A DNA stretch of 64,000 bases. Source: Sulfurimonas sp. Lineage in GTDB: Bacteria > Campylobacterota > Campylobacteria > Campylobacterales > Sulfurimonadaceae. The stretch spans positions 27,771-91,770 of the forward strand of contig JAKITC010000004.1 in the NCBI GenBank assembly GCA_021648285.1, given 5' to 3'. Positions 1-44,422 of this stretch are shown here, one piece after another (position 1 is the stretch's first letter; each line of letters begins with the position of its first letter). A program made the translations under genes and the position numbers. The notes under the pieces were generated by a model. That model saw nothing but the letters and a program-made list of their open reading frames with translations, did no database searches and was not told the DNA's origin.

Positions 1-1194
1 AGCTATTTTGTACCAGCAGTTATACTATCAGCAATACTATCTTTTTTTGGATGGTGGTTATTGGGTCCTGAGCCTCGTTTGGCTTATGCTGTGGTAGCAG
101 CAGTTGCAGTATTGATTATTGCCTGTCCATGTGCATTAGGACTTGCAACACCAATATCTATCATGGTTGGAACTGGTAGGGCTGCATTATCTGGAATATT
201 AATAAAAGATGCTAAAACTTTGGAGAGAATGGAAAAAGTAAATACTCTGGTTGTAGATAAAACTGGGACACTTACAGAGGGAAAACCAAAAGTGACCAGT
301 TTAATTGTAGAAGATGGTTTTGATAAAAAAGATGTTTTAAGATATGCCTCAAGCTTGGAGCGCTCAAGTGAACATCCCTTGGCAGAGGCAGTTGTCGAAT
401 ATGCAAAAGAAGAAGGTTTGACTTTATCCAATGTTGAAAACTTTAATGCTATTACTGGACAAGGTATTGTAGGGAAAATAGACAATAAAAAAATAGTATT
501 AGGAAGTGAAAAATTTTTAGAGAGTTTAAACATATCAACGAAAGATATAAGTGAAAAAGCCAATACTTTACGAAAAGAGGGAAAGGGCATTATCTTTATG
601 GCAATTGATTCGAAATTTAGTGCTATTATTGGGATCGAAGATCCAATTAAACTAACATCTGTGCAAGCCATTAAAGAACTTAGAGCTGAAGGTATTAAAG
701 TAGTTATGTTAAGTGGTGATAATGAGACTACAGCCAATGTTGTTGCGAAAAAACTAAATATTGATGAAGTTCATGCAAATATAATGCCAGATGAAAAAGC
801 GAAAATCATTAAGCAACTACAAGAGAACGGAGCAATCGTAGCTATGGCAGGGGATGGCATAAATGACGCACCTGCACTGGCTCAAGCAGATGTAGGTATT
901 GCTATGGGGACTGGTACCGATGTAGCAATAGAAAGTGCAGGAGTTACACTGATAAAAGGTGATTTAATAGGTATTGTAAAAGTATTAAAACTAAGTCGTG
1001 CCACTATGAAAAATATTAGACAAAACCTATTTTTTGCTTTTATATATAACAGCGCTGGGGTTCCAATAGCAGCAGGTGTCCTTTACCCATTTTTTGGTAT
1101 TTTGCTTTCACCGGTTATTGCAGCTGCAGCTATGAGTTTTAGTTCTGTGTCAGTTATAGTTAATGCTTTACGTTTAAAAAATATAAAAATATAA
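1..1194 (+). CDS. copA: Cu+-exporting P1B-type ATPase, C-terminal part (cut by left edge)
   Basis: The frame is open from base 1, so the listed TTG start at 61 is an artefact of the window edge and the true start lies upstream. Visible in order are the membrane ion-binding motif ACPCALG, the phosphorylation site DKTGTLTEG, the nucleotide-binding HP pair (SSEHPLAEA), the hinge GDGINDAP and two closing membrane helices. In the P1B family a CPC motif marks Cu+/Ag+ pumps of the inner membrane that move ions from cytoplasm to periplasm. The convergent CusABC genes downstream fit a second export step across the outer membrane. N-terminal metal-binding domains, if any, are outside the window. Confidence 0.93.
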
Positions 1195-1205
1195 TTAGAT
1201 ACTAA

Positions 1206-1328
1206 CTATCGATACCATAAGTAGTGCTCTATCATTACTTCTTCGCCTACCGCCGATGAACACTGCTCATACGCTGTCAGGGAAGTTTTTGCATCGATGA
1301 TAATATCTCCCCAAACACCCTGCCTCTT
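1206..1328 (-). pseudogene. Start-less 40-codon coding remnant in the copA-cusA gap
   Basis: The 282-base gap between copA and cusA holds no intact gene. On the minus strand 40 codons are open between two stops, with no ATG near the beginning, and the stretch is visibly richer in G+C than its surroundings. The translation ends VMIEHYLWYR, which resembles the end of the haem-motif lipoprotein at 7366 (VMIEHHYGVEG); the DNA shares an 11-base match (TGCTCTATCAT). It may be the tail of a lost paralogue or an unrelated decayed gene. The listed plus-strand 68-residue ORF over the same gap has no protein-like features. Confidence 0.3.
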
Positions 1329-1476
1329 TTATATAAACATTATCTATCTATTTTTTAAATTCGTTAAACTGCTCTTTCATTGGAGGTATCATTTTGCTGA
1401 GGTTTTCTTGATATATGTTTCGCGAAAAATATTTTATGATATTAAAATAATAAACTTTCTTAAGTGTTATCTATCA

Positions 1477-4400
1477 TTAAACATCTTTACTTTTAGACAG
1501 TAACTCTTTTTTTGCATAAATCTCAAAAAGAATTGGAATTATAACAAGACTTAAAATTGCTGAAGATATAATACCGCCAAGCATTGGAGCAGCAATACGC
1601 TGCATAACTTCACTTCCAACTCCGTGTGTGTACATAATAGGAGCTAAACCGGCAAGAATTGCAAACACAGTCATAAGTTTTGGTCTAACCCTTTGAACAG
1701 CTCCTTCATAAATAGCTTCACTTAGATGTTTTAGATTAAAAGCGGTACCATGTTTTTCTTGTGCCTCATCTACGCTCTCTTGCAAATATACTATCATCAC
1801 AATTGCTGTCTCGGCCGCAACACCTAAGAGGGCTAGAAATCCAACAATAACGGCGATACTCATAGCAAAATTTAGCATATCTATATATATTAAACCTCCA
1901 AGTAGCGCAAATGGAAGGGTTAAAAATACAATTAGTGTTGGAACCATCTGTTTAAGTGCAAAATATATGAGTACTAAAATACTTAATAAAACAGCGGGAA
2001 TAATCCATGTTATTTTTTGCATTGCTGATTCTAAATATTCAGATTGTCCAGCCCATTCAATATAGTATCCTGGCTCAAAATTAATCTCATCTATGAGTTT
2101 TTTAGCTCCATTTTTATAATCTGTTGCAGTGATACCCTCGTTGGGTGTAATATATACAAAGGTTACTGGATTAGCCATTTCAGATTTAATAACTGAAGCG
2201 CTTTGTCTATATTCAATTGTTGCAAAAGTAGAGAAAGGTACAAACCCAAGTTTTGTTTTAATTTGTATATTTTTTATACTCTCAATTGAACGCCTCTCAT
2301 CACCCTCTAAGCGAAGTGTGATTGGATAGCGTTCTAACCCTTTGTACATTGTTGAGACTTTCATTCCACCAATAGCTAATGACGTATAATGAAGCAGAGT
2401 GTTTTTAGCTAAACCATAGCGCTGCAATGATTCTTCATCTATATCAATATCTAAGTAATATCCGGCACTTGCTTGATCTGCAAAGACAGATAGGGTTTTA
2501 TCAAATGAACGAAGTTTATTTTCTATCTCTTTTCCATATTTTTGAAGACCCTCTGGAGTTTGGCCATAAAGTTTAATCCCCAATGGTGTTCTGATTCCAC
2601 TTAAAAGCATATCAATACGCCCACGAATTGGGTATGTCCAAGAGTTTGTAAGCCCTGGGACTTGAAGAGCATCTTCCATTTCTTGACGAAGCTTTTCATA
2701 TGTCATACCCTCTCGCCATTCACTTTCAGGTTTAAACGTGATAATAGTCTCTATCATACCTAAAGGCGCTGGGTCTGTTGCTGTATCTGCACGACCACCT
2801 TTACCAAAAACAGTTTCAACTTCAGGAAATGATTTAAGGATTTTATCTGTTTTTTGTGTCAAGGCTTTAGACTGATCAACAGAGATTCCATAAGGAGTTA
2901 CCGGCATATACATAAAAGTTTGTTCATTAAGCATCGGCATAAATTCCCATTTAAGAGAGTTAAAAAGTGGGTACATATAACCTAAAGAGGCAACAACACC
3001 AACTATTACAAGATACTTTAATTTTAATCCATAAACTATAATGGGATGATAAAGCCATATAAAAAATCTGTTAAGAGGATTTTTATTTTCAGGTAAGATT
3101 TTTCCTTTTACAAAAAATACCATAAGCACAGGGACTAAAGTTATACTAAGCAGTGCTCCGGCTGACATGGCAAAAGTTTTTGTAAAGGCTAGAGGCGTAA
3201 AGAGTAAACCTTCTTGTCCAGAGAGTGCAAAAATAGGTAAAAAAGAAACAACTATAAGAGCAAGAGCAAAAAATATTGGGCGACCAACAAGTTGTGATGA
3301 TTTTAAAATAATATCTATACGCTCCTTGTCTGTAGGTACGCGTTTCTCTTTAACTTCGAACTTATGTAACATTTTATGGGCATTTTCAATCATAACAATA
3401 CTGGCATCTACCATTGCACCAATTGCAATTGCGATTCCACCTAAACTCATTATATTTGAGCCTATATCAAATAAGTACATGAGCAAGAAAGTAATGCCAA
3501 CAGTTAATGGAAGTACAATTAAAACGATTAAAGATGAGCGAAAATGCATCAAAAATAGTCCAATTATAATAACAACGATAATAGACTCTTCAAGGAGTGT
3601 TGTTTTTAGTGTATCTACTGCTTTTTCTATCAAGGCAGAGCGGTCATAAACTGTAATAACATCAACTCCCTCAACTTTTAGCTCTTTCATCTTTTTATCA
3701 ATGCGCTTAATGGCAGAGTAAACATCTTCACCATATCGTAAAAGTACAATACCTCCGACAACTTCACCTTCCCCATTTAAATCTGCTATACCACGCCTAG
3801 AAGCAGGGGTAAGTTCAACTCTGGCAATATCTCCAAGAGTTACAGCAATACCATCTTTTCGCGTAACTACAAGTTTTCTAATGTCATCTAAATCTTTAAC
3901 ATAACCTTTGGCTTGAACCATCCACTCAAAACCATTTTCAATAATAATTCGTCCACCAGTATCATTATTGTTTTTTTGAAGAACCTTTGCTATGGTGTTA
4001 ATATTTAAATTGTAACGAATAAGGTTGTCATTATTTATAGTGACTTGATAGGTTGGTATAAAACCACCGATAGAAGCAACTTCACTTACACCATCTACGC
4101 CCATAAGAGCATATTTGTAATAATAATCTTGTAAAGTTCTAAGCTCGGCTAAATTTTTTGTCTTTGAAGTAAGTGCATACTCATAAGCCCAACCAACACC
4201 ACTAGCATCTGGCCCAAGTGAGACTTCCATAGAATCAGGAAGTTGGGATTGGATGGAAGAGAGTTGCTCTAAAACACGACTTCTAGCCCAGTAAAGGTCG
4301 GTTCCTTCTTTAAATATGATATATATTAAACCATTTTCATAAGTAGAATATCCACGAACCGTATCAATATTTGCGATAGCTAAAAATTGTGATACTAAAG

Positions 4401-4602
4401 GATATGTCCCTTGGTCTTCAATGATTTCAGGAGATTGCCCCGGCCATTTTATCTGTACAATTGCCTGAGGAGGAGATAAATCAGGAAGTGCATCAAGTGG
4501 TGTGTTTTTTAAAGAGTAGTATGAACCCATAGTAAAAAATAGAGCCATCATTAGTATAAGAAATTTATTCCTTATACTAAATTCAATTAATTTTTCAATC
4601 AT
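1477..4602 (-). CDS. cusA: CusA-type Cu(I)/Ag(I) RND efflux pump
   Basis: At 1041 residues this has the usual length of a heavy-metal RND transporter, with an N-terminal membrane helix, the CusA-typical GVGWAYEYAL stretch, and the charged helix-4 motif GAMVDASIVMIENAH used for proton relay. The three methionines that carry Cu(I)/Ag(I) through E. coli CusA appear to be conserved, in FMYMPVT, LGMIETI and RIDMLLSG, which argues for copper/silver rather than Zn/Co/Ni. It is the last gene of a minus-strand cluster, 2 bases after CusB. It should form the inner-membrane part of a tripartite pump that expels metal from periplasm or cytoplasm. Confidence 0.94.
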   Translation of the reverse strand: MIEKLIEFSIRNKFLILMMALFFTMGSYYSLKNTPLDALPDLSPPQAIVQIKWPGQSPEIIEDQGTYPLVSQFLAIANIDTVRGYSTYENGLIYIIFKEGTDLYWARSRVLEQLSSIQSQLPDSMEVSLGPDASGVGWAYEYALTSKTKNLAELRTLQDYYYKYALMGVDGVSEVASIGGFIPTYQVTINNDNLIRYNLNINTIAKVLQKNNNDTGGRIIIENGFEWMVQAKGYVKDLDDIRKLVVTRKDGIAVTLGDIARVELTPASRRGIADLNGEGEVVGGIVLLRYGEDVYSAIKRIDKKMKELKVEGVDVITVYDRSALIEKAVDTLKTTLLEESIIVVIIIGLFLMHFRSSLIVLIVLPLTVGITFLLMYLFDIGSNIMSLGGIAIAIGAMVDASIVMIENAHKMLHKFEVKEKRVPTDKERIDIILKSSQLVGRPIFFALALIVVSFLPIFALSGQEGLLFTPLAFTKTFAMSAGALLSITLVPVLMVFFVKGKILPENKNPLNRFFIWLYHPIIVYGLKLKYLVIVGVVASLGYMYPLFNSLKWEFMPMLNEQTFMYMPVTPYGISVDQSKALTQKTDKILKSFPEVETVFGKGGRADTATDPAPLGMIETIITFKPESEWREGMTYEKLRQEMEDALQVPGLTNSWTYPIRGRIDMLLSGIRTPLGIKLYGQTPEGLQKYGKEIENKLRSFDKTLSVFADQASAGYYLDIDIDEESLQRYGLAKNTLLHYTSLAIGGMKVSTMYKGLERYPITLRLEGDERRSIESIKNIQIKTKLGFVPFSTFATIEYRQSASVIKSEMANPVTFVYITPNEGITATDYKNGAKKLIDEINFEPGYYIEWAGQSEYLESAMQKITWIIPAVLLSILVLIYFALKQMVPTLIVFLTLPFALLGGLIYIDMLNFAMSIAVIVGFLALLGVAAETAIVMIVYLQESVDEAQEKHGTAFNLKHLSEAIYEGAVQRVRPKLMTVFAILAGLAPIMYTHGVGSEVMQRIAAPMLGGIISSAILSLVIIPILFEIYAKKELLSKSKDV

Positions 4603-4604
4603 AA

Positions 4605-5606
4605 TTAATACAACTCATTTATTTGAGCATCTGAATCCATCATAAATAGAGCGTTATTTACTACTTCATCGCCTTCGTCTAAACCAGCTACAACTTTGTA
4701 AGTATTTGCATCAATAATTTTAACACTTACTTCAAGAGGCTCATACTCACCCTCATACTCACCAACCATAAAGACATAGTATTTTGAATTTTTACGAATC
4801 ACTGCTGTTGTTGGTAGAGTTAGTTGAGTCTCTTTTCCTTTAACAGAGATAACTGTCGCATACATCCCTGGAAAAAGTTTATGATCTTTGTTGTTTACTT
4901 GTAAGCGTAGGGTTAGTGTAGCAATTTTAGGATCAAGTTGCGGATATAAGAGCTTTTTATTTGTAGTATATGTTTTCTCTAAGCCCTTAAAAGTCAGTTC
5001 ATACTTTTTAATACTTGTTATGTTTGTGCGTTGCTCTGAAAAAAGTTTTGCTTCCACCCAAACTTCATCAAGATTTACAATCTGAAAAAGCTTTTGTTTT
5101 GCATTAAAAGCGGAACCTTTATCAATGTTTTTAACAAAAATGTAACCATCTATTGGAGAGTAGATTGTAGTATTTGGTGAAACTTTTCTTTTTTTTGTGA
5201 TTTCTGCTATCTCTTTATTACTTATTCCTAAAAGTTTTAATTTTAATTTTGCACTCTCTAACATACTTTTATTTGGACGCTTTTTATTGTATTTTATTGT
5301 ATTTAAATACTCATCTTTTGCCTTAAGCACTTCAGGAGAATAAACTGTTAATAGTGGTTCACCTTTTTTTACATATTTATATATTTTATCTGCATATAGT
5401 TTTACAACATAACCGCCAAACCTTGGAGAGACACTGTTCATACGTGTTTGATCCATAGTGACATAGCCATAGTTTTTTATGCGCTGGGCTTTAGTTTCTT
5501 TTTTTACTTTTACAGTTTGTACGCTAAAAAGTTGTTCAACTGTTGCCTCTTTAGCGAGTAGTACCAAGGGTAAGACCAGTAACAACAGTTTAATTAATAT
5601 TTTCAT
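4605..5606 (-). CDS. cusB: CusB-like periplasmic adaptor (membrane fusion protein)
   Basis: A 333-residue protein with an N-terminal signal sequence (LLLLVLPLVLLAKEA). It has the HlyD/CusB arrangement: a barrel-sandwich half (SPRFGGYVVKLYADKIYKYVKKGE), a helical hairpin (about 90-135), the second lipoyl half (IYSPIDGYIFVKNIDKGS) and a beta-barrel/membrane-proximal part. It should link CusA to the outer-membrane channel. It is shorter than E. coli CusB (about 400) and lacks an extended Met-rich N-terminus, so metal binding may be supplied by the Met-rich neighbours. It overlaps the upstream TolC-like gene by 4 bases (ATGA), indicating translational coupling. Confidence 0.9.
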   Translation of the reverse strand: MKILIKLLLLVLPLVLLAKEATVEQLFSVQTVKVKKETKAQRIKNYGYVTMDQTRMNSVSPRFGGYVVKLYADKIYKYVKKGEPLLTVYSPEVLKAKDEYLNTIKYNKKRPNKSMLESAKLKLKLLGISNKEIAEITKKRKVSPNTTIYSPIDGYIFVKNIDKGSAFNAKQKLFQIVNLDEVWVEAKLFSEQRTNITSIKKYELTFKGLEKTYTTNKKLLYPQLDPKIATLTLRLQVNNKDHKLFPGMYATVISVKGKETQLTLPTTAVIRKNSKYYVFMVGEYEGEYEPLEVSVKIIDANTYKVVAGLDEGDEVVNNALFMMDSDAQINELY

Positions 5607-38600: not shown

Positions 38601-39140
38601 ATGACTGAGCAAGAAAAATTAAATGCAGAGATAGGAAAGCATCTTATGCAACCTGAAAATTATGGAAAACTAGAAGATGCTGATTGTACAGGGGTAGGAA
38701 TAGATAATACTACTTCATCATATGTAATTATGTATTTAAAGTTAGATGAAACTCATATCTTAGATGTGAAATTTGGCTCAAACTCAACTCAAGATGCAAA
38801 TACACTCGGTTCACTTTTTACTGAAATGATAAAGGGTGATGAGATTGTCAACGCCCTTAAAACTACTTTGCAGCTTGAGCAAGATCTACAAAAATCATAT
38901 GCAGATATTCCCCCGCCAAAAATAGATACCAGTAAACCTGAAGGGGAACAGGTTGAACATGTGTCAACTGAATACCAAGATAGTGCAAATATGGTGTTAA
39001 CTGCTTTTCGTGCCACTATGAGACACCTTGAGAGAAAAAAAGGTGGAGTAGTCGAAGATCAGTTTGAGATGAACATAGTTAAGTCATGTCCATACTCTGG
39101 TACTGAGTGCCACTTTGGAGATGTGAAAAAAGAAGATTAG
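38601..39140 (+). CDS. Degenerate IscU/NifU-like Fe-S scaffold protein
   Basis: 179 residues. The start (GKHLMQPENYGKLEDADCTGVG) and the following strands match the IscU/NifU_N fold, but of the three canonical scaffold cysteines only the first (ADCTG) is clear. The second position is replaced by FGSNSTQDANT, and the extra C-terminal cysteines (KSCPYSGTEC) are in a new place. It may bind a cluster differently or regulate assembly. Last gene of a plus-strand group before the accessory island. Confidence 0.65.
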   Translation: MTEQEKLNAEIGKHLMQPENYGKLEDADCTGVGIDNTTSSYVIMYLKLDETHILDVKFGSNSTQDANTLGSLFTEMIKGDEIVNALKTTLQLEQDLQKSYADIPPPKIDTSKPEGEQVEHVSTEYQDSANMVLTAFRATMRHLERKKGGVVEDQFEMNIVKSCPYSGTECHFGDVKKED

Positions 39141-39174
39141 ATTTCATTCAGTGGTAAAGTACAACGTTTGACTA

Positions 39175-39202
39175 CAACGACACTTTAGTGTTTGTTGCTA
39201 GG
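39175..39202 (+). terminator. Possible weak terminator hairpin
   Basis: CAACGACAC and GTGTTTGTTG can pair imperfectly across a TTTA loop, followed by GCTAGGTTTT. It lies between the convergent NifU-like and AIPR genes. Confidence 0.3.
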
Positions 39203-39220
39203 TTTTACTAGAAGACTTAC

Positions 39221-40909
39221 TTATTGGGCTTCATTTTTTTCAATAAAATCCATTTTTTTATTTAGATCATATCTTGACTTTGCAGATTTGAAATATCCAT
39301 TATGCGAGTATGTTAAATTTTTCCCTTCTAAAAATTTCTTTTCTTCATCTATTATATCTTTTATAGAATTACAAATTTCAGGGTATGCTTCTTCAAAATC
39401 TTTTTGTAATTTATATATTCCATATGATATAAGTTCATCGGCATAGTTTATAAAGTCATTATAAATGTTTTCATTACGCTTTCGTACAATAAATCTATAT
39501 ATTTCGTATGATTTTAAAAGCTGATTATAAATGGGAGAATCTTTTGAACCATTGAATAAACTGTATAATCTATGAGATTTGTCACTACTAGCTTCAAATA
39601 TTTCTTCGAGTAGTTTTGATTTTGAATTTTTTGCAAATTCTGGCAATTCTTGATAGCTTGCATACCAAAACTTAAAAACAATATCACTTTGTATTGATTC
39701 ATTTAATTGTTTGCTTAAAGTGTTTTCAAAAGTATCTCCTCGCTTTGCAAGGTAACCTATATTGTTTGATTCAAAAAGTGATTTTGTATATTTATTAAAA
39801 TTTCTATTACTTATTTTATCTCTATAACTTATAGGAGACTGAGTGTTTGTAGCATCAGTTATTTTATCTACAATATCTGGATCACTTGTTTCGTATAGTC
39901 TAATTAATACATAAACTCCATCTAGCTTAGTGCGATCATCTTTGTAAATATCATATATAACACTAGTGGTTTGCAAACCATTAACAATAACAGGATTAGT
40001 AGTTTCAATTGGATAGTAGCCTGCCTGCATATCATTAGGGATTTTTATTTTTTCAGATATGATAGTTATTCCATTATTTAAAAAAGGAAAATATTCAGAA
40101 TAGTTACTTTCTAGTGTTTCTTTAATATTTTTATTTGTTTTATTATATTTTAAAAAACCTCTAATGTTATCACTAAAAACAGTATCTATCCTTTTATTAA
40201 TTTCTTTTTCTTTATCCAATAGTTGACACAGATCAAGTGCTTTCAATCTAAAGTTTATTGCTTTTACATTTTGTATTTGAAATGAGATTAATGCCTGAGG
40301 ATCTCTTTTTAGAGATATATTGGATTTTTCTGCCATGAAGCTAAAATCGATGTTTTTTCGTTTTTTATTTTCTGAGATCAAATTATCAATTCTGTCATAT
40401 AAATCATTTATATCATAGATTGCTAGTTCATTATTTTCTTCTTGATGTCTTTCTATTATTGCTTGATCGTTTTTTTCTTTTTCTCCAGAAAAAATGAAAT
40501 ATAATTTAACATCTACAATTTTTCCTGAAGATACAATATTAGTGTATCGTTCTAAAAATGATTTTACCTTTGAATTTAAAGGAATATTTGTACTGTTACC
40601 ATAGACAAAAATATTCCTATAATCATTAACAAATTTTGAAAGTACATTATCGCCTAGCCCTTTTCCATTTTTCATTTGAAAAACATGCATAGTGCATTCA
40701 TTATCATCTTCATCAATATATATCCCATCTATACCGCCATCATGCTCTCCATTCCCGTTAACGATAGTGCTAATATTGTGAAATACTTCATCAAAACTTT
40801 GGTCTAAAAGTGCAGTAATAGCTAAAATTTCAAAAGCAAAATTTCTTGAAAGTGAAAATTTTTTTTCTATTCGTTCTAGATAACCGTTAATAAATAATTC
40901 TTTGTTCAT
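39221..40909 (-). CDS. AIPR-family abortive-infection (phage resistance) protein with putative nuclease N-terminus
   Basis: 562 residues. The central and C-terminal region (about 230-480) has the AIPR pattern: NIRGFLKYNKTNKNI, FPFLNNGITIISE, NPVIVNGLQTTSVIY, LIRLYETSDPDIVDKITDATNTQ. The N-terminus holds a PD-(D/E)xK-like signature, DGGIDGIYID followed 16 residues after the Asp by FQMK, suggesting DNA cleavage. AIPR was named from abortive phage-infection genes of lactic acid bacteria. The gene stands alone, AT-richer than its neighbours, between housekeeping genes and next to an IS remnant, consistent with a transferred defence gene. Trigger and target unknown. Confidence 0.8.
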   Translation of the reverse strand: MNKELFINGYLERIEKKFSLSRNFAFEILAITALLDQSFDEVFHNISTIVNGNGEHDGGIDGIYIDEDDNECTMHVFQMKNGKGLGDNVLSKFVNDYRNIFVYGNSTNIPLNSKVKSFLERYTNIVSSGKIVDVKLYFIFSGEKEKNDQAIIERHQEENNELAIYDINDLYDRIDNLISENKKRKNIDFSFMAEKSNISLKRDPQALISFQIQNVKAINFRLKALDLCQLLDKEKEINKRIDTVFSDNIRGFLKYNKTNKNIKETLESNYSEYFPFLNNGITIISEKIKIPNDMQAGYYPIETTNPVIVNGLQTTSVIYDIYKDDRTKLDGVYVLIRLYETSDPDIVDKITDATNTQSPISYRDKISNRNFNKYTKSLFESNNIGYLAKRGDTFENTLSKQLNESIQSDIVFKFWYASYQELPEFAKNSKSKLLEEIFEASSDKSHRLYSLFNGSKDSPIYNQLLKSYEIYRFIVRKRNENIYNDFINYADELISYGIYKLQKDFEEAYPEICNSIKDIIDEEKKFLEGKNLTYSHNGYFKSAKSRYDLNKKMDFIEKNEAQ

Positions 40910-40984
40910 AAAATATTCCTAATTTAGTGATAATAATTTTCAAATTGTACCATATAATATATTTGTTTAAAGTGATTGATTTTT

Positions 40985-41238
40985 TTATCTTCTAACGTCT
41001 ATCTTAGGAAATAAGTCGTCGCGAGGCTACTTATTTCTCTCTGATTGTGAGTTTTTATTATCGGTTCATATTTAAATATTTGCTTCTTGATCCATAGAAT
41101 ACTTCTATGATAATCTTCTGCTAAATCTTTTAGAATATCTATAATCTGTTTCTCACTAAACTTACTTTTTCGCATGAATACTCCTGATTTATTTTATCAG
41201 AATTATTCCGTTTTAGGTGGTACAGTTTTTAGGGGGGG
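40985..41238 (-). mobile_element. Truncated IS3-family element (left end)
   Basis: Read on the minus strand, a C-rich terminus (CCCCCCCCTAAAAACTGTACC) followed by CTAAAACGGAATAATTC leads into the OrfA ribosome site and start. This is the layout of an IS3-type left end. The opposite end was not identified; it was probably lost between OrfA and the AIPR gene. The boundary at 41238 is set where the repeat-protein coding sequence begins. Confidence 0.55.
40999..41175 (-). pseudogene. IS3-family transposase OrfA remnant
   Basis: A 58-codon frame just under the track cut-off. The beginning, MRKSKFSEKQIIDILKD, is the typical helix-turn-helix start of IS3-family OrfA and is preceded by CAGGAG. The rest (LAEDYHRSILWIKK...) no longer follows OrfA and ends early at TAG, so the gene is rearranged or internally deleted. 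No OrfB/integrase-core sequence remains nearby. Confidence 0.65.
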
Positions 41239-41585
41239 GCTTACAGAAGGATTCTAAAATAATTGAAATTATAAAAAATCAAACTGAAAAAGTTCAACTA
41301 CTCGCTGTCAAAAAAGATTCTTGTATTATTAAATTCATACAGCATCCAACTGAAAAAGTTCAACTACTCGCTGTCAAAAAAGATTCTTGTATTATTAAAT
41401 TCATACAGCATCCAACTGAAAAAGTTCAGATAGCTGCAGTCAAAAAAGATCCTAAAAGTATTATACATATACAAAATCCGAATAATGCAGTTCAAATGAC
41501 GGCAATAACAAAAGATCCTAAAAGTATAAATTTCATAAAATATCTAAGCGATGAAGTTCAGTTGATTGCAGACAAGAAAGATTAG
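41217..41585 (+). pseudogene. Repeat protein truncated and fused to an IS end
   Basis: 122 codons. The first eight (GTG start, VVQFLGGGL-like) are IS-end sequence; then about 22-24-residue helical repeats begin (KVQLLAVKKDSCIIKFIQHPTE, later KVQIAAVKKDPKSIIHIQNP and QMTAITKDPKSINFI). Such VQL-AV-K repeats occur in phage and Campylobacterota/Firmicutes proteins of unknown function. The true N-terminus was removed when the IS inserted, so this is probably a 3' fragment. A possible start exists but no good ribosome site. Confidence 0.6.
41283..41414 (+). repeat. Two identical 66-bp tandem coding repeats
   Basis: ACTGAAAAAGTTCAACTACT... through ...CAGCATCCA is present twice without a mismatch (41283-41348 and 41349-41414) and a diverged third copy follows. 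The unit is 22 codons, so the number can change without a frameshift. Perfect identity implies a recent duplication. Confidence 0.9.
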
Positions 41586-41614
41586 AATCTTGTTATATAC
41601 GTCAATACTCTCTG

Positions 41615-44422
41615 CTAAGGACTTTTTCTAAATCCTCTGCCTCCCGGCTTAGTAGCTCTGGTTGTATAGTTTTTTTTGAAACACGACTGACAAATACTGT
41701 ATTTTGAGTTAAGTGGCAGAGGTACATGACACAGTCTACATGTAGAAGCTAGTTGACCCCGATGCAGGGACTCCTCTATATATTTATTTAAAAGCCCTCT
41801 TGCGATACGAGCTTTTTGGGCATCCGGAAAGTACTCTTTAAACCTGTAACTGAGCCAAAGGTATAGTGATATCTCTTTAACCATATCTTCAGCACGCAGA
41901 AGCTCAACAGATGTCTGTGCATAAGCTTCTGTAAGTATAGGTGTTACATATGGAATAGGCATCTTTTTCTCTAGTGCGACTAAATAGCTCTCGTATGCTG
42001 CGACAATATATGGGGACTTCAGGGTCAACGGAGCACATGAGAGATGGTACTTTGTTGCTATGTCTAAGTCATAAGTATCCACCATCAACGCGGCTTCTAA
42101 CATGTCATCCAGGTTTGATGCGATAAACGGACCGTTAAATTCCATATTTTTCCCAAAAAACTTTAAAATCTCACTCAGAGAACGCTCTTCTAGAATATTA
42201 CCGACCAGTTTTATGTGGTCCAGGTTTGCCATAACTTTAAAAGGGATAGCTATAGTCTTCGCATCTTTGTAAAAGTTTTTTTTCACAATGCTTAAAATAT
42301 CAGAACTTAAAGCTCCAACATAACCCTCTTCATGCAGACCAAATCTTCCGGCACGTCCTGAAATCTGATGGACTTCACTTGGAAACAGGTTTCTTTGGCT
42401 TACGCCATCAAACTTTTCTGCACTTGAAAAGAGTATGGTTTGTATAGGGAGGTTCATTCCCATTGCGATTGCATCTGTCGCAACAAGTATCTGAGTCTCA
42501 CCCATTCTAAATTTTCTTGCCTCTTCACGCCTGACTTCAGGAGAGAGATTTCCGTATACAACACTTACTTTAAAATCATGTGAAAATTTTTGCTTTAGCT
42601 TGAGTACATCTTTTCTGCTAAAAGCAATTATGGCAGTACCTTCTTTTATATCTTTCATATCTGTAGGAGAGTCTAAAAGAGTTAGCGGATTCTTTCTCTG
42701 GAACTCTACAATCTCCAGCTCTTCACCAAGATACTCAGCCAATGCTACAATGGACTCTTTTGAGTTTGGAGAGCCTGTCATTATGACTTCACTAGCCGGT
42801 GCTCCTATAATTGCATTTGCCCACGCCCAACCACGGTCACGGTCATCTATCATCTGAACCTCATCAATGACACAAACATCTACATCAACTTCAAAGTTCA
42901 ACATCTCTATTGTTGAACTTATATGTGTCGCATCATCATCCAAAATCTGCTCTTCGCCTGTTATAAGAGAAGCGTCAATACCATTTTCTTTTAACTCTTC
43001 ATAACCCTCAAGCGCTAGAAGTCTAAGTGGAGCCAAATAGTAACCGGTATCTGCATTTTTAAGTTTTTGCATTGCCTGATATGTTTTACCGCTGTTTGTG
43101 GGACCTATATGAAGAATTAGCTTTCTTCTCATGCTTCTTGCTTGTGGAAATAGATTTTTAAAATCTCTTATCGTTCTGGCCAATAGTGCATGTCTTTGCT
43201 TTTTGATTATCTCATCACGCGTTTCATGTATAAATCTTTTTACTGTTTTACGTGTGACCTTTGGTGTTATCGCCAATGAAAATGGAAGTAAATCAAGTAA
43301 GACATCATAAACTTTTTGATGTAACTCCTCATCACTTAGATGAAGCAGAGTTGTGTATGCCCTGCACTCTTCAACTACACCGTCCAAATCATGATAAAAC
43401 TGCTCTTCATGCTCTTTTTTTGACTCACTTATGACTTCAGAAAAATCAAGCTCTTTTGAATCCCAAATATCTTTTAACAGTGAGTTTAACTCTACATGTA
43501 GCTCTAAAGTATAATCTTGTGTTTTATCTACATGTGGAAGTTTACACTTCTGCTCCAATCGAATCAGAAGCTCTTCATCATGAAGCTCTAACTCAACTAA
43601 ACCAAGCTCTTTTTGAACAATTTCGCAAAGGATACTCTCTTTGATAAGAGGATAAGAGACTTTTGTCTTTGGAGGTGATGCACGAAGTGAACTTGCTATC
43701 TCTTTTTGAGTTAAATGGATATGCTTTTGTGGCAGGCTTTTTATAAAACTATTAATTTCATCCTGTTTTACCTGTACTACTCTATCTTTCTCTTTTAAAA
43801 TCTCAGCTATCAAAATATCTTCATCTGTCTTTTGAAGATATTCATAACTGTATGTTTTAGTATTTAACGTCAATATCTTATGAAAACTCTGTCCGTAAAG
43901 CACGTAGTGAAGTGATGCGTTAAACTCCAAAGTATCATCTATATCAAAAATACCATCCAGTGCTTTTTGAAGTCTCTCTTTTTTCAGTTCAAAACGAATA
44001 TGTTGAAGTTTTGACTCCATCTTCTCAATGGTTATCTTTTTGCTTCTAATGTCGTGAAATGCTTCGTGAAGCGAAACAGCCTCTTCTTGATTTACATCTA
44101 ACTCTTGCAATAGAATATCTATCTTATCTTCTCTATCTAGGTTTGGTTCTTTAGGAGTGTTTGATCTGTAAATCTCACTGTTTGAAGCAAAAAAGTTTAA
44201 AATATCTTGGCGGAAGTAACTATCTGCTTCGCTCCACAGCATTCTTGCTGTTTTAACAAGCACATCTTTTGTATGTTCAATATCGTAAAATCCAAGAGTA
44301 GCAAACAGCTCACTCAGAGTCTCTGAGCTTACTCTGTCAATTCCGACATCGAAAGGATCATCATCAAAATATTTTCTTATTTTTTGATTTATTTTAGAAT
44401 TTTTTTTATTTTTTTTTGACAT
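41615..44422 (-). CDS. SUV3-like superfamily 2 RNA helicase with C-terminal zinc finger
   Basis: 935 residues. The long N-terminal half (about 1-425) is helical and charged, not recognised. The helicase core follows: Walker A HIGPTNSGKTYQA, APLRLLALEGYEEL, DEVQ box (CVIDEVQMIDD), motif III MTGSPN, motif V VATDAIAMGMNLP and motif VI QISGRAGR, the SUV3 order. The C-terminus has a four-Cys zinc finger (CRLC ... CQSC). Mitochondrial Suv3 works with a degradosome nuclease; the bacterial relatives in Campylobacterota are longer and uncharacterised. A role in RNA decay is inferred. Confidence 0.8.
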   Translation of the reverse strand: MSKKNKKNSKINQKIRKYFDDDPFDVGIDRVSSETLSELFATLGFYDIEHTKDVLVKTARMLWSEADSYFRQDILNFFASNSEIYRSNTPKEPNLDREDKIDILLQELDVNQEEAVSLHEAFHDIRSKKITIEKMESKLQHIRFELKKERLQKALDGIFDIDDTLEFNASLHYVLYGQSFHKILTLNTKTYSYEYLQKTDEDILIAEILKEKDRVVQVKQDEINSFIKSLPQKHIHLTQKEIASSLRASPPKTKVSYPLIKESILCEIVQKELGLVELELHDEELLIRLEQKCKLPHVDKTQDYTLELHVELNSLLKDIWDSKELDFSEVISESKKEHEEQFYHDLDGVVEECRAYTTLLHLSDEELHQKVYDVLLDLLPFSLAITPKVTRKTVKRFIHETRDEIIKKQRHALLARTIRDFKNLFPQARSMRRKLILHIGPTNSGKTYQAMQKLKNADTGYYLAPLRLLALEGYEELKENGIDASLITGEEQILDDDATHISSTIEMLNFEVDVDVCVIDEVQMIDDRDRGWAWANAIIGAPASEVIMTGSPNSKESIVALAEYLGEELEIVEFQRKNPLTLLDSPTDMKDIKEGTAIIAFSRKDVLKLKQKFSHDFKVSVVYGNLSPEVRREEARKFRMGETQILVATDAIAMGMNLPIQTILFSSAEKFDGVSQRNLFPSEVHQISGRAGRFGLHEEGYVGALSSDILSIVKKNFYKDAKTIAIPFKVMANLDHIKLVGNILEERSLSEILKFFGKNMEFNGPFIASNLDDMLEAALMVDTYDLDIATKYHLSCAPLTLKSPYIVAAYESYLVALEKKMPIPYVTPILTEAYAQTSVELLRAEDMVKEISLYLWLSYRFKEYFPDAQKARIARGLLNKYIEESLHRGQLASTCRLCHVPLPLNSKYSICQSCFKKNYTTRATKPGGRGFRKSP

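Follow-up and report, generated by a model that had tools for sequence, protein, structure and literature searches.

A Sulfurimonas AIPR/AbiU-like gene carried as an integron cassette and predicted to encode an Mrr-like nuclease

The AIPR-family gene found between two housekeeping genes of Sulfurimonas sp. is best explained, at a probability of roughly three in four, as an integron cassette whose product couples an Mrr-like nuclease domain to a GmrSD-N/DndB/ParB-like domain, and for which sensing and DNA cutting are proposed. Within the window, that is, the whole stretch of 64,000 nucleotides analyzed here, the gene lies in the interval 39141-41614, which corresponds exactly to the gap between a nifU-like gene and an SUV3-type helicase gene (Table 1). 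The AIPR gene, IS3 remnant and decapitated repeat protein listed for this interval in an earlier note were all located there. The same note had described the AIPR gene as having a lone setting, which holds insofar as it is a single gene, but it had missed the two attC sites flanking it; the gene stands alone because it is an integron cassette. Its GC content is about 26%, versus 34-39% in the surrounding DNA.

Table 1. Features of the AIPR cassette and its surroundings (positions in the 64-kb window).
Feature	Coordinates	Strand	Basis or remark
nifU-like gene	38601..39140	+	Pfam NifU_N 3.8e-10; adjoins cassette end
attC of AIPR cassette	39159..39213	-	starts 8 nt past the stop codon; R'' box degenerate; nhmmer 8.5 bits, covariance 23.2 bits
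Inferred 1831-bp cassette between the two G^TT crossover points	39165..40995	-	R' box positions; identity with L071 ends here
AIPR/AbiU-like gene, intact, 562 aa, ATG start	39221..40909	-	Pfam AIPR, PADLOC AbiU, dN/dS 0.05-0.11 (six relatives)
AIPR domain proper, residues 245-525	39335..40177	-	Pfam; conserved NNG..(I/V)NGxQT..TNxQ motifs
N-terminal Mrr-like PD-(D/E)xK domain, about residues 1-166	40412..40909	-	invariant residues, hhalign Mrr_cat, AlphaFold2 topology
Predicted active-site codon D57	40739-40741	-	
Predicted active-site codon D61	40727-40729	-	
Predicted active-site codon Q78	40676-40678	-	
Predicted active-site codon K80	40670-40672	-	
Promoter-like TTTAAA-16-TACAAT, extended -10, inside cassette	40944..40971	-	TATGGTAnAAT kept in 4 of 5 aligned copies
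attC of preceding cassette	40990..41053	-	nhmmer 13.3 bits; covariance 23.3 bits
IS3 fragments (repeated DNA)	41032..41245	-	matched at 97% and 84-89% by other DNA of this genome
Truncated DUF4116-like repeat gene, about 122 aa	41217..41585	+	weak repeats at Pfam cut-off
SUV3-type helicase gene, other flank	41615..44422	-	Pfam DEXQc_Suv3 7.9e-57

The attC sites were identified with a sequence profile and a covariance model, both built from 31 attC sites located beside integron integrases of the genus; the structure of the covariance model was set by hand, RNAalifold having found none, as MAFFT shifts the arms. The two best covariance matches in the 64-kb window are the sites flanking the AIPR gene, both on the minus strand and at 23 bits, with the third at 14.8 bits, and these two are the only attC sites in the window. 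In 100 dinucleotide shuffles of the window searched with the sequence profile, no match reached 13.3 bits and two matches at 8.5 bits never occurred together. Both sites are degenerate, with covariance E-values of approximately 0.06 each, and the folding of their DNA alone was not clearly better than that of shuffles. The stretch at 40990-41053, assigned to a preceding cassette, has 84-90% matches among other attC sites of the genus. The arrangement is that of an integron cassette, with the AIPR gene followed by one attC site and preceded by another on a single strand. The gene of the preceding cassette has been lost to IS3 scraps, of which 41126-41245 and 41032-41136 match other places of the same genome at 97% and 84-89%, respectively. 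The earlier designation of this DNA as an IS3 remnant is therefore borne out as regards repeated DNA, but the 57-aa peptide encoded in it has no Pfam match, and the IS3 label is one of resemblance to the start of an IS3 OrfA.

Clusters of at least two attC sites without an integrase are designated CALIN (PMC9024848). No integron integrase (TIGR02249) scored over the cut-off in the genome harboring the window (assembly approximately 90% complete), and none was detected in the window by tblastn; across the genus, integron integrases over the curated cut-off are present in 52 of 135 genomes. The element in the window, with two sites 1.8 kb apart, is therefore a CALIN and not a complete integron and, because no integrase was found over the cut-off in its own genome, the present mobility of the cassette is unproven. 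Arrays of about ten attC sites were observed in several genomes of the genus. The genome under study also has a second integrase-less cluster, on contig C51 (positions 1-5245), with three attC matches, two C5 methyltransferases and a PLD-type restriction enzyme that make up a restriction-modification set.

The nifU-like gene was used as the anchor for comparing this site across relatives; its adjacency to the SUV3-type helicase gene was not found in the relatives checked. The survey of the locus proposed in the earlier note revealed a variable site. A full-length copy of the AIPR gene is present in this genome only among the 135 of the genus, a few of which encode more distant AIPRs. In the nearest relative (G017, NifU 94% identical; locus L071), identity extends from nifU to the cassette boundary and then gives way to a different gene followed by its own attC site (68.7 bits), so that one cassette is replaced by another at the same site, and in the next relative (G109, NifU 92% identical) there is no insertion beside nifU. 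The replacing gene in L071 (positions 1-703) encodes at least 209 amino acids and has no credible Pfam or PADLOC match.

Copies of the protein with 82-83% identity were identified on four other Campylobacterales contigs, and copies with 74-75% identity in two more genomes; the neighboring genes differ at every locus, and the GC content of all copies falls between 25 and 29%. The DNA that the copies have in common spans from a short upstream stretch with the promoter-like sequence TATGGTAnAAT, which is kept in 4 of 5 aligned copies, to just beyond the stop codon. The copy of Sulfurovum FS08-3 lies within an array of five attC sites (L128, 6679-12796) that also holds an ATPase (PADLOC candidate family PDC-S46), a nucleotidyltransferase (PDC-S09) with a small partner, an acetyltransferase and a MazEF-like pair, with no integrase on the stretches searched. 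At loci L004 and L006 an attC site lies directly past the AIPR stop codon, and in the closed genome G012 the copy is reduced to its leader and last codons between two attC-like sites (L012, 1433-1722), nearly 1 Mb from the integrase gene of that genome. Because three copies (L007, L015 and L016) have no attC site and a fourth (L005) has a weak one upstream only, some transfers may have followed a route other than cassette movement. No attC sites were present at the more distant AIPR loci checked across the phylum, which served as a negative control.

These data bear on the possibility that the AIPR gene arrived with an IS3 element, a prophage or an ordinary defence island and that the likeness to attC is coincidental. 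The IS3 fragments do lie upstream of the gene, and AIPR genes are found in P2-like prophages and on plasmids. The IS fragments, however, fall outside the cassette; attC sites occur on both sides in the correct orientation, unlike anything in the 100 shuffles; the nearest relative has a replacement cassette with its attC at the same site; and attC sites accompany the copies in L004 and L006 and the remnant in G012. We hence consider such an origin very unlikely. It could also be argued that a genuine cassette is nevertheless silent, its gene being kept unexpressed in an integrase-less array, as might be expected from the lack of an integrase over the cut-off in its own genome, the destruction of the preceding cassette and the decay of the copy in G012. 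Against this, the promoter-like site with an extended -10 element inside the cassette could drive expression, and comparison with six copies yields dN/dS values of 0.05-0.12, with both halves of the protein under strong purifying selection, although this reflects the lineage and not this copy alone. A silent cassette is thus judged quite unlikely.

The cassette protein belongs to the AIPR family, as it matches Pfam AIPR (PF10592) over residues 245-525 at 1e-44, with 153.9 bits against a gathering score of 25. It also matches the PADLOC AbiU profile nearly over its full length (4.4e-41, residues 2-523 on profile positions 1-498 of 537), a listing overlooked by the earlier note when it referred to AIPR proteins as loosely known phage-resistance factors. 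With AIPR/AbiU proteins it shares this full-length profile match, the AIPR motifs and the single-gene organization, but it is only about 20% identical to the AIPR protein of a Lactococcus plasmid and belongs to a separate Campylobacterales subfamily. MzaE, of the MZA system, was considered and rejected (28.3 bits versus an NCBIfam cut-off of 1050, with no mza-like genes adjoining). Sequence searches of the PDB with the protein, both as a single sequence and as a profile, returned no match, an Rfam search yielded nothing relevant, and viral contigs contained no relative of the protein and no member of the A4 subfamily.

No Pfam model matches the N-terminus of the 562-aa protein. Makarova et al. 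(2012) predicted the N-terminus of AIPR proteins to be a HEPN domain (PMC3506569), according to which the protein would be an RNase toxin acting through RNA cleavage and dormancy, whereas the earlier note had pointed to a PD-(D/E)xK-like signature (GID..FQMK). The residues of this signature, D57/D61 and Q78/K80, are the only N-terminal positions invariant across 38 diverse AIPRs, a set that deliberately left out a longer class. In a wider, unselected set (n = 68), 50 of the shorter proteins could be aligned at the motif; 47 of these have the pattern D, D, Q/N, K, and the other three present D and the canonical E-x-K. Among the longer proteins of this set (at least 660 aa), the lysine is missing in 11 of 14; this class of 660-720 aa (e.g. 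L024, L026, L184, L193) may comprise inactive or differently working relatives. Comparison of the N-terminal profile with Mrr_cat using hhalign gave a probability of 94.9% (4.6e-8) with the signatures aligned, versus 0.1-0.2% for HEPN, GmrSD_N and DndB (0.2% for HEPN). The N-terminus is thus homologous to Mrr_cat, and the signature noticed earlier is confirmed in both conservation and profile.

The fold was predicted with AlphaFold2 from the 38 sequences (pLDDT 80.7, pTM 0.66), an earlier model from five close sequences (pLDDT 32) being discarded. The predicted elements comprise helices at 2-18 and 22-35, strands at 62-67 and 72-81, a helix at 87-102 and strands at 132-141 and 162-166, the order of which fits that of a PD-(D/E)xK nuclease core (alpha-beta-beta-beta-alpha-beta), with all structural matches in the PDB above E 0.1: the PD-(D/E)xK enzymes N.BspD6I, EcoT38I, HamA and Bse634I appear at E-values of 0.47-2.9. 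The model therefore points to a mixed alpha/beta domain at residues 22-166, not to the all-helical one expected of HEPN. Together with the profile scores and the identity of the invariant residues (D, D, Q and K), this leaves the published HEPN reading largely refuted, and we regard an RNase toxin as extremely improbable. Relative to Mrr_cat (PF04471) and related PD-(D/E)xK restriction nucleases, with which it shares the D-G-G-I-D ... Q-x-K signature and profile homology, the Mrr-like domain of the cassette protein falls below Pfam detection and is fused to an AIPR domain, not to a winged-helix or other reader. Metal-dependent DNA cleavage by this domain would be the corresponding activity.

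For the C-terminal half, a Foldseek search against the BFVD collection of viral models returned an AIPR protein as the best match (6.3e-15), followed by weaker matches (E 1e-3 to 1e-1) to GmrSD-N proteins, DNA-sulfur modification proteins and ParB-like proteins, and the C-terminal (I/V)NGxQT motif aligns with DGQQR. Profile comparison of the C-terminal domain with GmrSD-N, DndB and ParB-like models gave no significant match. These predictions weakly suggest, as a lead, a GmrSD-N/DndB/ParB-like fold followed by helices. The protein would resemble GmrSD (DUF262) and DndB in its predicted fold and has an (I/V)(D/N)GxQ motif like theirs, but there is no significant sequence profile match; it differs further from GmrSD in that its putative nuclease is a PD-(D/E)xK domain at the N-terminus and not an HNH domain at the C-terminus.

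Taken together, the following mode of action may be proposed. The single-gene cassette, consisting of its own promoter, one ORF and one attC site, would have been placed beside the nifU-like gene by an integron integrase in the past, at a site that is now a CALIN. Its two-part AIPR/AbiU-like product would combine the N-terminal Mrr-like PD-(D/E)xK nuclease with a C-terminal GmrSD-N (DUF262)/DndB/ParB-like domain whose role would be to sense phage DNA, a DNA modification or a state brought on by the phage, a nucleotide perhaps taking part. Sensing would release the metal-dependent nuclease (D57, D61, Q78, K80) to cut DNA, and the outcome could be either type IV-like restriction or abortive infection. 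A homologue in phage RE-2010 is annotated as 'prevents superinfection' (by annotation only), and further pointers to defence are the PADLOC assignment to AbiU, the candidate defence families neighboring the FS08-3 copy and the restriction-modification set in the second attC cluster of the same genome. Of the one-gene, nuclease-based defence suggested in the earlier note, the nuclease reading is supported by conservation and profile comparison, whereas nuclease activity, the ligand and phage defence are inferred. The protein might alternatively be a regulator with a nuclease fold or a housekeeping DNA-repair factor, given that published work connects DndB, a regulator, with the AIPR family. This is unlikely in view of the patchy distribution, low GC content and cassette mobility of the gene, the intact and conserved predicted active site, the match to AbiU, and the occurrence of candidate defence, restriction and toxin-antitoxin genes in accompanying cassettes.

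Integrons of Vibrio and Xanthomonas, as well as mobile integrons, store anti-phage genes (PMC12444791), and anti-phage cassettes of chromosomal or mobile integrons are the subject of Darracq 2025, Getz 2025 and Kieffer 2025, as cited therein. The cassette described here shares with them a defence-type gene carried as a gene-attC unit, but differs in its Campylobacterales host, in the lack of an integrase in its cluster and in carrying an AIPR gene. Similar integrase-less attC clusters occur in the related bacteria Sulfurovum NBC37-1 and Sulfurimonas autotrophica (PMC10295459), where the study of cassette content concerned carbonic anhydrases and not defence. Neither an AIPR cassette nor an Mrr-like assignment turned up in the open-access literature, which leaves out key subscription papers. 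For a widespread phage-resistance family, the published prediction of a HEPN RNase is replaced by a testable DNA-nuclease active site with named residues, and the storage of anti-phage genes by integrons is extended to the Campylobacterales, where integron integrases are common, as the 52 carriers among 135 genomes of this genus show. More tentatively, AIPR proteins at large may be one-protein, ligand-gated nucleases in which an Mrr-like domain is driven by a GmrSD-N/DndB-type sensor, with one Campylobacterales subfamily borne by integrons, which would serve as libraries for the exchange of defence genes.
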